Below are positions 20,232 through 27,945 of a DNA stretch of 28,381 nucleotides, piece by piece. The notes beneath the pieces were generated by a model that had not been told where the DNA came from, searched no databases, and worked only from the letters and a program-made list of their open reading frames with translations. Every line of letters starts with the position of its first letter. The first letter of the stretch is position 1. Both the position numbers and the translations under genes were made by a program. The stretch spans positions 1 to 28,381 of the IMG/VR virus record IMGVR_UViG_3300007538_000125; one strand, given 5' to 3'. The DNA is from a virus.

Positions 20232-21632
20232 TTAGATTATACCTGTGTCTTTTGCACATTCTAATATTGTGATGAAGTTGGAACCTGTTGTTCCACCACT
20301 CATTTTATGACGAATCTTAGTAATTATATATTTCCCACTCAAATATGTATCAATCTGACTGCCTTCCTTATCTCGCTCAGTGTTTGTTGTGAGAGGGAAA
20401 GTAAGATTGATGGTGTTTCCTACATTCAATTCTGCATCACCTGGAACAGCAACTTCCAAAATTGTATTGAAGATGATTGCACTGTATGCTTCTTTTTTCT
20501 GTAGAAAGTGATTAATTCTTTTTGGTAGGTGATTTTCAGCAGAGAATACCATGCACTGGCAGTCATGTCCGCTTCTATCTGTAATCATCGTAACAACTGG
20601 TTCGCCAACCGCACCACCTTGCATCTTTGCTTCTTGCAAAGTCTTAAAACTATTTGCACTCTTGTCATAGTCGTAGTATGATTCATACATTGTTTTCTTA
20701 TGAACATCGAGATTCATCAAAACAGAACTGTACATTCCGCTTGCAAGATTCTCAAGAGTGTTGATTTGCTTCAACACATTATAAGAAATGATCTTAAAAG
20801 GATCATCAGTTTTTAATGCTTCTTCGCCATCCTTTGGCAAAACTCTTGGCGTGTTGGATATTTTGTAAATGTATGACTTTACTGGATCTGAGGTTACAAG
20901 GTTGGACAGATTTCTAAAATTAAATCCTTTCGCATCTTCATAGAAAAGATAGAATGGAATGTGATCGTCAGAATCTGCTTCCTTTCCCAAAAAATCTATC
21001 GTGTCATCAACAGACAAGTTTGGAATAATTAATTTCTGCGCACCAATTGTTTCATCATATACATTGGTTTTCTGAATCGTGTATTTTATAGTGTCTTTGA
21101 CTGATGCGTGTAATTGTTTCGCATTTTTGTTGTAGATGAATTCATCAACAATGTTATTCACCATCTTAGAAATTGTTGATCCAGAACTTCCACCATATGC
21201 TCTGGAAATCTTTACTGGCGCAGAAATGAATGCTTCAACACTAACCCCAGACAAGTTATAGATCTCTTGGTTCTCATTTGATCTTTGACGACTAGACAAT
21301 TCATACAAACGAAACATATGATTGTTGAATGTCATTGCAGTATCAGATTCGCCTTCAACACCTCTGTTTCTATAAGAGATAACAAGAATTTCATTACCAT
21401 TGAATCCACCAGAATACTTGTTTTCTTTATCCGCTGGAATGTAATTCATCAAAGAGATAGAATCGACAAGAACAATGTCACACTGAAGATAATGTTCAAA
21501 CAAATTTTGATAGATGTTTATCTCAGCGATCATGGTTGAGACATCAATAACCTGCCCAGCTGTTGTGAGCAAGATCGCATTTTTGAATTCAATATCGCCA
21601 GGCTGGCGATAACCTTTAGAGAATTCCGCCAT
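20232..21632 (-). CDS. 27: Baseplate hub protein, gp27-like
   Basis: 466 residues; T4 gp27 is 391. The N-terminal part (VSTMIAEINIYQNLFEHYLQ, then CDIVLVDSISLMNYIP, GNEILVISYRNRG) shows the pattern of hub proteins: secondary-structure blocks that begin with a dipping interaction region and a polar Gly-x-Glu-x-(I/L) loop. A later part contains FLGKEADSDDHIPFYLFYED and LNVGNTINLTFPL, as expected for the tube-like hub domains. gp27 trimers join the gp5 spike to the tail tube. Position after gp53 and before the spike agrees. It overlaps gp53 by one base (TAATG). The call rests on pattern and synteny, not a strong diagnostic motif. Confidence 0.75.
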   Translation of the reverse strand: MAEFSKGYRQPGDIEFKNAILLTTAGQVIDVSTMIAEINIYQNLFEHYLQCDIVLVDSISLMNYIPADKENKYSGGFNGNEILVISYRNRGVEGESDTAMTFNNHMFRLYELSSRQRSNENQEIYNLSGVSVEAFISAPVKISRAYGGSSGSTISKMVNNIVDEFIYNKNAKQLHASVKDTIKYTIQKTNVYDETIGAQKLIIPNLSVDDTIDFLGKEADSDDHIPFYLFYEDAKGFNFRNLSNLVTSDPVKSYIYKISNTPRVLPKDGEEALKTDDPFKIISYNVLKQINTLENLASGMYSSVLMNLDVHKKTMYESYYDYDKSANSFKTLQEAKMQGGAVGEPVVTMITDRSGHDCQCMVFSAENHLPKRINHFLQKKEAYSAIIFNTILEVAVPGDAELNVGNTINLTFPLTTNTERDKEGSQIDTYLSGKYIITKIRHKMSGGTTGSNFITILECAKDTGII

Positions 21633-24449: not shown

Positions 24450-25301
24450 ATGGCATCGTTTCTAAGCAAAGTAGCAAAAGATGTTGCTGGTTCCGTAGTA
24501 AGCGGAGCAATTAACAAAGTATTGGGTGGCGTTTCAACTCCACAAAGCACTGGACTCAGTGTACAGAATATTCTATCCACTATTAATAAATCTGGCGTTG
24601 CCAAATCATCTCACTTTGAAGTTCAAGTTATTGGTCCAAAAGGACCACTAACGAATAAACTGGACACCAACTACGAGCGTGAGATGATCTATCGTGCAGA
24701 TTCTTGCGAACTTCCTGGTCGTACCATTCAAACAACAGACTATAAGTTTAGCAACTATGGTCCAATGAGCAAACTTGCATATGGTCAACAGTATGGAGAT
24801 AGCAGCATAAGTTTTATCATGAGCGAAGATCTGCGAGAAAAAGAATACTTTGAACTGTGGCAAGATAGCATGGTCAATACAGGTGCATTTGAAGTTGGTG
24901 GTGGGCAACCAAATCGTTCTACCTCGAAGTTCAATGCGAGATATTTTGATAACTATGCAGGAACAGTTATCATAAGACAATATGCCACTGCTGGCGACTT
25001 GCGCTCTATTCATACACTAAAAGAATGCTATCCGATTATCATCAATCCAATCTCAATGACATGGGGAGAGGATAATCTTGTAAGAATGTCCGTGACATTT
25101 GCGTTCAGATATTACACTGCAGTATTCAATAAGCAAGATCAAGCAGGAATGGGTTATGGTTTCAGTTTGAAACTTGGCAAGGGTGGATTGCAAGGTTCTT
25201 TGCGTTTGCCTGGAATTGGTACTATCGCTGGTGGCGGTGGTTTTGGAACACAAGCAAATTTGGATCCACTTAAGAAAAGGATTGTTTCTGCGATATTATA
25301 A
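24450..25301 (+). CDS. 54: Baseplate tail-tube initiator gp54
   Basis: 283 residues; T4 gp54 is 320. The N-terminus is a helical, weakly hydrophobic segment (FLSKVAKDVAGSVVSGAINK). A tube-protein-like domain follows: FEVQVIGP, MIYRADSCELPGRTIQTTDY, SISFIMSEDLREKEYFELWQ, MTWGEDNLVRMSVTFAFRYY. gp54, gp48 and tube protein gp19 share one fold, and gp54 is the layer that starts tube growth. The alternative is that this is the gp19-like or gp48 equivalent, but gp48 is already assigned at 22207-23364 and this position beside gp26 fits gp54. It starts at the base after the previous stop, with AGGGAG upstream. Confidence 0.78.
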   Translation: MASFLSKVAKDVAGSVVSGAINKVLGGVSTPQSTGLSVQNILSTINKSGVAKSSHFEVQVIGPKGPLTNKLDTNYEREMIYRADSCELPGRTIQTTDYKFSNYGPMSKLAYGQQYGDSSISFIMSEDLREKEYFELWQDSMVNTGAFEVGGGQPNRSTSKFNARYFDNYAGTVIIRQYATAGDLRSIHTLKECYPIIINPISMTWGEDNLVRMSVTFAFRYYTAVFNKQDQAGMGYGFSLKLGKGGLQGSLRLPGIGTIAGGGGFGTQANLDPLKKRIVSAIL

Positions 25302-25318
25302 AATGATTGGAGATTATT

Positions 25319-26014
25319 ATGGCGTTACCATCGTTAGCGATTCCTGAATTTAGAGCAAATTTACCATCAACTGGGAAAGAAGTTAGATTTAGACCTTTCC
25401 TTGTAAAAGAAGAAAAGATTCTTTTGATGGCACTTGAAGGCGGAGACGAAAAAGAAATTATTAATGCAATTCTGAATGTTTTGCAAAATTGCATTTTAGA
25501 TGATCTTGATGTCAGAAAGATGCCATCATTTGATGTTGAATATTTGTACATGCATTTGCGTGCTAAGTCTGTTAATGAAATTATCTCAATGAGACTTGGT
25601 CATAGAAACAGCGAATGTTTGCACAAAACAGATGTAGAGATTCCGATCAATGATATTAAGGTTATTGGTAAAATCTCAAATGGTGTTGTTAAGTTGACAG
25701 ACACTGTTGGGATTAAATTCAAATATCCTGGAATCGAAGATCTCAATGTAATCGGTGATGCAAAAACGGAAAACATTTTTGAGTTGATCTATCGTTGTGT
25801 TGAAAGTGTGTATGATGAAAATGATGTTTACACAGAGTTTGATAGAGAAGAACTAGAAGAATGGTTGGAACAACTCAACAAAGAACAGTTTGAAAAAATT
25901 GGGGGATTCTTTTCAGAGATACCAAAGTTATCATATATTGTTAATTGGACTTGCCCAGCATGTGGTGAGTCTGATTCTGCAAAGGTGGAGGGTTTGGCAA
26001 GTTTTTTTATCTAA
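25319..26014 (+). CDS. 26: Baseplate hub / tail assembly protein gp26
   Basis: 231 residues from ATG 25319, selected because GGAG lies six bases upstream; a TTG start four codons earlier is unlikely. T4 gp26 is 208. It is recognised by IPEFRANLPSTGKEVRFRPF then LVKEEKILLMALEGGDEKEI near the start, the signature of the T4 baseplate gp26 family. C212 and C215 (WTCPACGES) precede the C-terminus (GLASFFI). The last codons AGT TTT TTT ATC TAA contain a slippery run of seven Ts, described separately. gp26 is needed for hub assembly in T4. Here it sits two genes before the tape measure, the usual place for tail-assembly chaperones in other tailed phages. Confidence 0.92.
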   Translation: MALPSLAIPEFRANLPSTGKEVRFRPFLVKEEKILLMALEGGDEKEIINAILNVLQNCILDDLDVRKMPSFDVEYLYMHLRAKSVNEIISMRLGHRNSECLHKTDVEIPINDIKVIGKISNGVVKLTDTVGIKFKYPGIEDLNVIGDAKTENIFELIYRCVESVYDENDVYTEFDREELEEWLEQLNKEQFEKIGGFFSEIPKLSYIVNWTCPACGESDSAKVEGLASFFI

Positions 26015-26061
26015 GCATGATACATGATTCGCTGGCAAATATGTATCAGATGAACTTTGCC
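26002..26061 (+). other. Candidate -1 programmed frameshift signal (slippery site plus pseudoknot)
   Basis: The slippery heptamer T TTT TTT occupies 26002-26008 in the gp26 reading frame. After a 9-base spacer, stem 1 pairs TGATACAT (26018-26025) with ATGTATCA (26041-26048), 8 perfect base pairs. Inside its loop, GGCAAA (26034-26039) pairs with TTTGCC (26056-26061), 6 perfect base pairs, giving an H-type pseudoknot with connecting loops of 8, 1 and 7 bases. A -1 shift reads TAT CTA AGC and then enters the gp51-like ORF in frame. The product would have about 290 residues. Found by reading, not by a folding program. Confidence 0.65.
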
Positions 26062-26190
26062 CTAATGCATCACCATAAATATTCTTTGACTGAATTGGAG
26101 AATATGATACCTTGGGAGCGAGACATTTATGTTGCGCAGCTGCGCCAATATCTGGAAGAACAAGAAGAACGACTAAAACAGAGACGATAA
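26017..26190 (+). CDS. 51: 57-residue gp51-like protein, likely -1 frame partner of gp26
   Basis: 57 residues (MIHDSLANMYQMNFALMHHH, then YSLTELENMIPWERDIYVAQ, then a charged Glu/Gln/Arg tail). ATG 26017 is two bases after the gp26 stop, in the -1 frame relative to gp26. No purine-rich ribosome site precedes this ATG or the in-frame ATG at 26041, so independent initiation looks weak and reading by frameshift or termination-reinitiation is likely. The compact helical PWERDxYxxxL segment is typical of small proteins encoded directly before tape measure genes. Cyanophage annotations often call this position gp51, the hub assembly catalyst, though T4 gp51 is much longer (249 residues, recalled); the symbol is therefore positional. 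Confidence 0.8.
   Translation: MIHDSLANMYQMNFALMHHHKYSLTELENMIPWERDIYVAQLRQYLEEQEERLKQRR
26074..26081 (+). promoter_or_regulatory. Possible late promoter before the tape measure gene
   Basis: CATAAATA differs from the late consensus at the first base only, a variant tolerated in T4. It points right, within the gp51-like gene, 109 bases upstream of the tape measure ATG. It could be chance in AT-rich coding sequence. Confidence 0.3.
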
Positions 26191-27945
26191 ATGGCAACAG
26201 TAAAACAAAAAACAAAACAAAAGACTTTGCCGACAGTCAATAAAGGTGTCGAAAAGGCTCAGTTGCAAGCAGCTTCTATGCAGGCGCAAGCAACAGAGAA
26301 AGCAGCACAGGCATCAATCGAAGCAACCAGTAGACTTGGTGCAAGACTTGGTGGTGGACTAGCAAATATCTCTGGTGGTATTCGTGAACTTCGTAAGAGC
26401 ATTGACACCCAAACTGTATATTTGGAGAACATGTGGGATCTTCAAGCAACCAAGTTTGAGTGGGAAAAACTGCAAGGACTATACCAAGAAGAAAGGGATA
26501 GAGAACTTGCACGAGCAGTCGGGAGCAGCGAGACATTAGGTGATCAACCTGGAGAGGGGTTTGGTAAGACTCCACAATCACAAGCTCCTGGATGGTTGTC
26601 TGGTTTACTCTCTAGTCTTGGGTTGGGTGCACTTGCTCCAACAATTGCCAATCTTGCCAAAGTAACTGGATCTTTGGGTCTTGCAGTTGCACCTCTTTTA
26701 GCAATGAAGAAGGTTGCTGACTGGGCAGAAGAAACAGAAACAACTCGCACCGATAAAACAACTGGCAGATTGACTGGCGAAGGTGGGGTTGAGAATCCGC
26801 TTACTGATATTGCCAATATTGGAATGAGCATTGGTGGCGTTGGGTTGAAAGAAGATCAAATTGATCCTACGGTTGCAACTGCGGAAGCAATGGCTCGTAG
26901 AATGAAAGATGCTGAAGAACGAGTACAAAAGTCTAGAGCAAGATTAGATGATCTCGCCGAACGAATTGCTGAGGCACGTGAAGAAGGAGACCAGCAGCGT
27001 TTAGAAGTCCTTGAGGGTCAAATGCGAAATGAGATGCAGAATCTCAAGGATGTAACTGCTAAGAGAGAAGAATTCCAAAAGCAGGCGCAAGAACAAATTG
27101 GCGAAGGCAAAAGAATCAGTGAAGAAGAATGGAAGCAAGCAACTGAAGATGTAATCAGTGTCTTTGATGGTCTTGGTCCTGGACAAATCGCCGTTGCTGC
27201 TGACGATCTTAGAATCAAAACTGAAAAAGAACTTGATGCAGTTCGACAGGAAAATGAAGATCTAATCAATAAGGCAGGTGCTGCGCTCTCAGGTTCTGAT
27301 GTTCAATGGGAAATGGATAAGAAAGCCCAAGAACGGAAGGATGCTTTGCAAGCAGAAAGAAAAGCAGCACAAGCAATGCCAGAAGGAGCAGAAAAAGAAG
27401 CAGCTCTTAGAAAGGCAGGTGTCTATACAGATCAAAAGGGGAGAGAAGATTGGGAAGCATTATCTGAAGAGGATAAACTAAAACGCTTCAAGGGAATGGA
27501 AGCGACGCTTGAAAGAACCAAAGAACTGTATTCAAAAGATGGTCTTTCTGAGCAGGAACAAAAACAACTGGATGCAATGAAGCAAAACATGTTCAAGGAC
27601 TACATGCTTGAATGGCAGAAGTCTTTGAGTGAAGGTGTCAAAGTTGAAGAAATTAAACCAGAAGATGCTGTTCAACCTTTTGTTCCTGGACAGATCTCAC
27701 CAGCACCAAGTGCTTCTGGTGAGGGTGTTGGTGCAAAGGTAAATGCTCAGTCTAAAGAAGTTTCACAGGCGAACATTTCTGCTCCAACGAATAATATCGC
27801 TGCACCTGTTACCAACAATAATGTTAACAACACAACCAATGTGAATAACACCACAGTTGTTCCGCCAAGTGCAACTCGCAGCAGATCAGCCGGAATGGGT
27901 GGAATGGGTAGAAAACCAACTGCTTTCGAACAAAGATACTGGTAA
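26191..27945 (+). CDS. Probable tail tape measure protein (gp29 equivalent)
   Basis: 584 residues. The N-terminus is basic and Ala/Gln-rich helical. Residues ~133-172 are hydrophobic (WLSGLLSSLGLGALAPTIAN, then SLGLAVAPLLAM). Residues ~225-330 are a long charged coiled coil (AEERVQKSRARLDDLAERIA), with further helix to ~480. The C-terminus is Asn/Thr-rich with NNNVNNTTNVNN and ends FEQRYW. A hydrophobic patch in a mainly helical protein, placed directly after the gp26/gp51 pair, fits a tape measure. Its length is nearly that of T4 gp29 (590, recalled). At about 0.15 nm per helical residue this predicts a tube near 88 nm, T4-like. I see no direct gp29 motif. It starts immediately after the TAA of the previous gene. 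Confidence 0.75.
   Translation: MATVKQKTKQKTLPTVNKGVEKAQLQAASMQAQATEKAAQASIEATSRLGARLGGGLANISGGIRELRKSIDTQTVYLENMWDLQATKFEWEKLQGLYQEERDRELARAVGSSETLGDQPGEGFGKTPQSQAPGWLSGLLSSLGLGALAPTIANLAKVTGSLGLAVAPLLAMKKVADWAEETETTRTDKTTGRLTGEGGVENPLTDIANIGMSIGGVGLKEDQIDPTVATAEAMARRMKDAEERVQKSRARLDDLAERIAEAREEGDQQRLEVLEGQMRNEMQNLKDVTAKREEFQKQAQEQIGEGKRISEEEWKQATEDVISVFDGLGPGQIAVAADDLRIKTEKELDAVRQENEDLINKAGAALSGSDVQWEMDKKAQERKDALQAERKAAQAMPEGAEKEAALRKAGVYTDQKGREDWEALSEEDKLKRFKGMEATLERTKELYSKDGLSEQEQKQLDAMKQNMFKDYMLEWQKSLSEGVKVEEIKPEDAVQPFVPGQISPAPSASGEGVGAKVNAQSKEVSQANISAPTNNIAAPVTNNNVNNTTNVNNTTVVPPSATRSRSAGMGGMGRKPTAFEQRYW

Follow-up and report, generated by a model that had tools for sequence, protein, structure and literature searches.

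A poly-T slip site with flanking signals suggests a frameshifted tail assembly chaperone gene in a T4-like marine phage

The stretch of DNA analysed here (the window; 28,381 nt, positions 1 to 28,381 of IMG/VR virus record IMGVR_UViG_3300007538_000125) comes from a T4-like marine phage, in which one tail assembly chaperone gene very probably gives two products through −1 slippage at the heptamer T TTT TTT; the occurrence and rate of slippage we infer from sequence. Most ribosomes would terminate at 26012-26014 and release a gp26-like short form (TAC-N) of 231 residues, while a minority would slip back one base at 26002-26008 and make a long form (TAC-NC) of 290 residues. Pairing between 16S rRNA and the upstream GGAGGG (at 9 nt) probably aids the slip, and a stem or pseudoknot 9 nt downstream probably does so too. 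If lambda gpG/gpGT is a guide to the binding roles, the N part of both forms would coat the tape measure protein, for which the next gene is a candidate, and tail tube subunits would be recruited by the C domain, found in the minor form alone. T4 would make the same pair of products from genes 26 and 51.

The gp26-like gene (25319-26014, plus strand, stop codon included; 231 aa) hits PF12322 (E 1.8e-62) and phrog_150 (E 1.1e-65), and the SD sequence GGAG precedes its ATG, with an anti-SD duplex of −6.4 kcal/mol. Its 3' end reads ...GAG GGT TTG GCA AGT TTT TTT ATC TAA GC ATG..., with the stop at 26012-26014. Upstream lies a tail tube-like gene (24450-25301, plus strand; phrog_45 tail tube, E 1.3e-29), and downstream a gene of tape measure size without recognised homology (26191-27945, plus strand). 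The 584-aa protein of the latter is a candidate tape measure only by its place after the chaperone gene and its length, which is comparable to that of T4 gp29 (590 aa); it had no match to T4 gp29, Pfam, NCBIfam or a useful PHROG, and its recognised relatives are confined to the closest loci. It bears an N-rich VTNNNVNNTTNVNNT stretch near its end. In relatives L004, L005, L007, L011, L014, L016 and L024, the C domain is separated from the large tape-measure-like gene by ~330 nt, a gap that the window lacks.

A preliminary description of this DNA had pointed to an in-frame heptamer, T TTT TTT, at 26002-26008 (plus strand), and its position and gp26 phase were verified in the window sequence. 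In-frame T TTT TT occurs only twice among the 8669 codons of the window genes. The other occurrence is mid-gene, at codon 213 of a minus-strand gene (20232-21632), and is probably due to chance. The −1 frame has no stop between 25975 and 26187, its bounds being a TGA at 25972 and the stop at 26188-26190; the next ORF does lie in this frame, with nothing to interrupt the path from slip site to ATG. Across the junction the frame reads FF-YLS-M(26017)IHDSLANMY..., and the predicted C-terminal, gp51-like domain of the long form takes up 26008-26190 (plus strand; 60 residues, YLSMIHD...KQRR, plus stop). The fusion product computes to 290 aa (230 + 60), in line with the earlier estimate of about 290. 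The frame relation by itself was excluded from the evidence, because stop-start overlaps (ATGA, TAATG) yield a −1 frame anyway.

Relatives of gp26 were taken from viral contigs and annotated phages, locating gp26 by profile and inspecting the end of the gene. Comparison of these junctions, which had been suggested as a check, bore out both the T-run and the frame: T TTT TTN is found in frame, 2-5 codons ahead of the gp26 stop, at 226 of 231 distinct junctions, and the −1 frame continues into the same ~60-residue domain at 218 and is open to the contig end at 7. The residue before the heptamer can be S, D, N, F, G, A, T or R, always with T as the last base of its codon; the T-run's second Phe is replaceable by Leu (TTA, TTG). 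Where FF occurs elsewhere in gp26, T TTT TT encodes it in 11 of 90 cases, and tests of synonymous choices at the T-run, in which shared ancestry was handled by clustering alone, gave log10 P of −12 to −51 for 41 to 161 clusters. Across these junctions the heptamer is conserved as a base pattern, beyond the peptide, and it is of the in-frame X XXY YYZ type from which a programmed −1 frameshift is predicted. In E. coli, slippage is weaker at U UUU UUU than at A AAA AAG (PMC5009743).

A fusion could also be had without ribosomal slippage, were RNA polymerase to slip on the T-run and produce transcripts longer or shorter by one base, and the window does present a homopolymer of seven T. We consider this extremely improbable, as the run in many relatives consists of exactly six T with a C after them, which is short for such slippage, the codon phase is fixed among them though phase is irrelevant to a polymerase, and the SD-like element and stems described below act on ribosomes.

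The five distinct junctions (of 231) without the heptamer are those of the Det7 type, K369, Cygsa01, Kuja and one phage of the T4 subgroup. Det7 (with S118), K369, Cygsa01 and Kuja (Det7, S118, K369, Cygsa01 and Kuja being loci L086, L095, L087, L103 and L105) keep a −1-frame C domain, with ATT TTC, CTT TTC or CTT TTT replacing the heptamer, while the T4-subgroup phage has gene 51 on the opposite strand. At one junction of the 231, that of Synechococcus phage S-SCSM1, the C domain lies in the +1 frame, the −1 frame having met a stop before it; this is either a genuine switch in strategy or a sequencing error. The +1-frame C domain of S-SCSM1 (L082, around 3215) adjoins a GATCCATATGGATC palindrome.

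A GAGG-type sequence stands at a fixed distance upstream of the heptamer across the relatives; in the window it is the SD-like GGAGGG at 25987-25992 (plus strand), with 9 nt between its end and the heptamer. Anti-SD pairing peaks 7-10 nt ahead of the heptamer and surpasses that of synonymous-codon shuffles (t about −7), and Glu at the element is encoded by GAG rather than GAA in 42 of 58 cases, with 15.4 expected from codon usage. By these measures the SD-like element is selected at synonymous sites, and GGAGGG is probably a frameshift stimulator that helps through pairing with 16S rRNA. The preliminary description, which had pointed out the downstream stems, had missed it.

The 8-bp stem that had been placed nine bases past the heptamer is there: after a 9-nt spacer (26009-26017), the 5' arm of stem 1, TGATACAT (26018-26025), pairs at 8 of 8 positions with the 3' arm, ATGTATCA (26041-26048), both on the plus strand. 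Over 26 close relatives, 91% of stem 1 cells are paired; one position is AU in 12, GC in 10, GU in 4 and unpaired in none, and one close relative shows a C-G/G-C swap. Sliding the register of the whole structure leaves at most 48% paired. The H-type pseudoknot that had been proposed holds in part, in that the arms of a possible stem 2, GGCAAA (26034-26039) and TTTGCC (26056-26061; both plus strand), are complementary at 6 of 6 positions in the window, but conservation of this second stem is only moderate (83% paired, with one good covarying pair and one pair failing in 12 of 25). Compensatory changes, a further suggested check, are thus seen for stem 1 in the close relatives and are weaker for stem 2. 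At 9 nt, and covarying in close relatives, stem 1 is a predicted structure within the 5-9 nt expected downstream of a slip site.

Stem 1 is kept in the window's form in close relatives only, and the pseudoknot as such is a trait of the window's close group, not family-wide. The covariation was seen by direct pair counting only; RNAalifold on the junction alignment gave no consensus structure, an Rfam search gave nothing relevant, and the fold energy of the window region, set against shuffles, is ordinary for its composition (z +0.27). Family-wide, the region after the heptamer folds more stably than the background of the same gene (mean z −0.72, t −4.3). Fold stability in the family peaks a second time ~24-42 nt upstream of the slip site (mean z about −0.9).

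Two separate genes would be another way to read the locus, with ATG 26017 serving as an independent start of the 57-residue ORF, perhaps one coupled translationally to the gp26 stop, and the T-run doing no more than encode a conserved Phe-Phe tail. An ATG 2 nt past the stop suits translational coupling, some 40% of clusters place an ATG no more than about 10 nt from the gp26 stop, the databases agree in that the C domain of relatives is usually annotated as a separate gene 51, and the frame relation in S-SCSM1 would require something similar. However, ATG 26017 has no SD, as had been remarked before, its best anti-SD duplex reaching only −0.1 kcal/mol, compared with −6.4 for gp26. Nor is it conserved, Leu being the commoner residue at that position (L 68, M 19 in 100 relatives); about half of the clusters (52/105) lack an ATG within 40 nt of the gp26 stop and about a quarter (28/105) lack any ATG, GTG or TTG near it. 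C-domain similarity among the relatives begins at the slip site, before any start codon has been reached, and conserved residues are present between the slip site and ATG 26017. The codon choice at the T-run is far from codon usage, and T4 gp51, a single long polypeptide, matches the whole fusion. By profile, the small ORF hits phrog_634 (E 3.8e-25) and also the C-terminal end of phrog_150, with which the fusion aligns continuously over 5-275 at 260 bits, while gp26 alone scores 223 (37 bits fewer). We hold separate genes to be highly unlikely, and the C domain is, as predicted from these comparisons, an internal part of the frameshift fusion and no independent gene.

That gp26 is a tail assembly chaperone, as the preliminary description had ventured, agrees with its AlphaFold model (pLDDT 91). 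For residues 1-94 of the model, the best solved matches by VIA-align are the HK97 TAC 2ob9, YqbN 3klu and the Bacillus protein 3fgx (Z 7.2-7.4), with the HK97 and YqbN chaperones among the top at Z 7.4; these matches are still under Z 8, and unrelated chains score Z 4.3 and less. The HK97 TAC ranked first with VIA-align only: in a Foldseek search of the model against the PDB it came third (probability 0.80), with all E values above 0.5. The modelled N-terminal domain of gp26 has the TAC fold, and the chaperone assignment of the gp26-like protein is largely supported by the model.

Comparison with T4 assigns the two predicted products to different T4 proteins. T4 gp26 matches the unshifted product, i.e. 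the N part (E 5e-20), and the ends of the two coincide, while for T4 gp51 the alignment takes in the entire protein and the entire fusion (E 1e-10). Searched by itself, the C domain hits only the end of gp51 in T4 (E 4.9e-5; shuffles about 0.3). The 57-residue ORF had been called gp51-like, which is right as to the end of gp51, but it is the whole fusion that is the counterpart of T4 gp51. T4 gp26 and gp51 are paralogues (E 2e-6) that both match PF12322, and their genes are separate and on opposite strands, so the frameshift proposed here is not one of T4 itself. In a tree they group together (93/94), which would suggest a duplication of gp26/gp51 in the T4 lineage, and only suggest it, because gp51 is a very long branch. 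Read most simply, these alignments mean that T4 uses two genes for the products that the window phage would obtain from one by frameshifting. By homology the window products are members of the T4 gp26/gp51 family (PF12322, phrog_150, phrog_634) and, at the level of sequence, a TAC-N/TAC-NC pair, i.e. a short form and a C-terminally extended form that share an N part.

The slip site of lambda gpG/gpGT is G GGA AAG, that of the window phage and its relatives T TTT TTN. The window phage also differs from lambda in its SD-like element and stem-pseudoknot, and gp26 is larger than gpG, with a Cys-rich C-terminal segment; sequence similarity between the two was not found. The signal resembles that of E. 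coli dnaX, with an internal SD about 10 nt upstream, a slippery heptamer and a downstream stem, but in dnaX the heptamer is A AAA AAG and the frameshift gives the shorter product, whereas T TTT TTT in the window would give the longer one.

The tail assembly chaperones of T4-like phages were reportedly identified by Vladimirov, Gautam and Davidson in 2022, in a paper whose title refers to a mechanism other than frameshifting; we take gp26 and gp51 to be the chaperone genes of that work, which fits the homologies found here. A chaperone role for gp26/gp51, which the preliminary description had offered as a new view of the pair, had already been published for T4-like phages in 2022. The T4-like gp26/gp51 chaperones are of the same protein family as those of the window, but where T4 has a gene pair split between opposite strands and lacks a slip site, the window phage has one gene and a slip. 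The gpG/gpGT frameshift is widespread among tail assembly chaperones, with T4 named as an exception (PMC5009743). A 2025 paper cites Vladimirov et al. 2022 for −1 signals of poly-T type in the TAC-N genes that T4-like phages carry (PMC12846349). The same paper covers Pseudomonas phage Adele and the Vandenendeviridae, another phage family, where a −1 frameshift was inferred from an invariant poly-T, GTTTTT, together with a frame that stays open in all genomes, and where the passages concerned report no SD-like element or pseudoknot (PMC12846349). Because of the 2022 identification and the poly-T signals cited in the relevant part of PMC12846349, we class the finding as known in kind. The chaperone role and the poly-T signal are already known; the SD-like element, covarying stem and junction census, not found in the literature searched, are additions.

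We lean slightly towards a broader reading, in which a dnaX-like signal of three parts (SD-like GGAGG, T TTT TTN, and stem or pseudoknot) would be general in T4-like phages outside the T4 subgroup, and the T4 subgroup would later have swapped it for gene duplication, copy 26 supplying the short form and copy 51 the long form in one frame. In these data most marine and environmental relatives of T4, itself the named exception (PMC5009743), carry signals of a lambda-type G-T shift, and T4's two genes gain a simple reading. The small 'gp51' genes are explained as C-terminal fragments annotated from incorrect starts, and hundreds of annotations in cyanophages would need revision. Since the piece would be no separate gene, inconsistent and truncated gp51 starts in cyanophage records are understandable. 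Such starts are seen in the gp51 annotations of P-SSM7, S-RSM4, Syn33 and Melnitz-3 (L088, L089, L081 and L096), and the annotated start of P-SSM7 gp51 lies 90 nt inside the similarity match.
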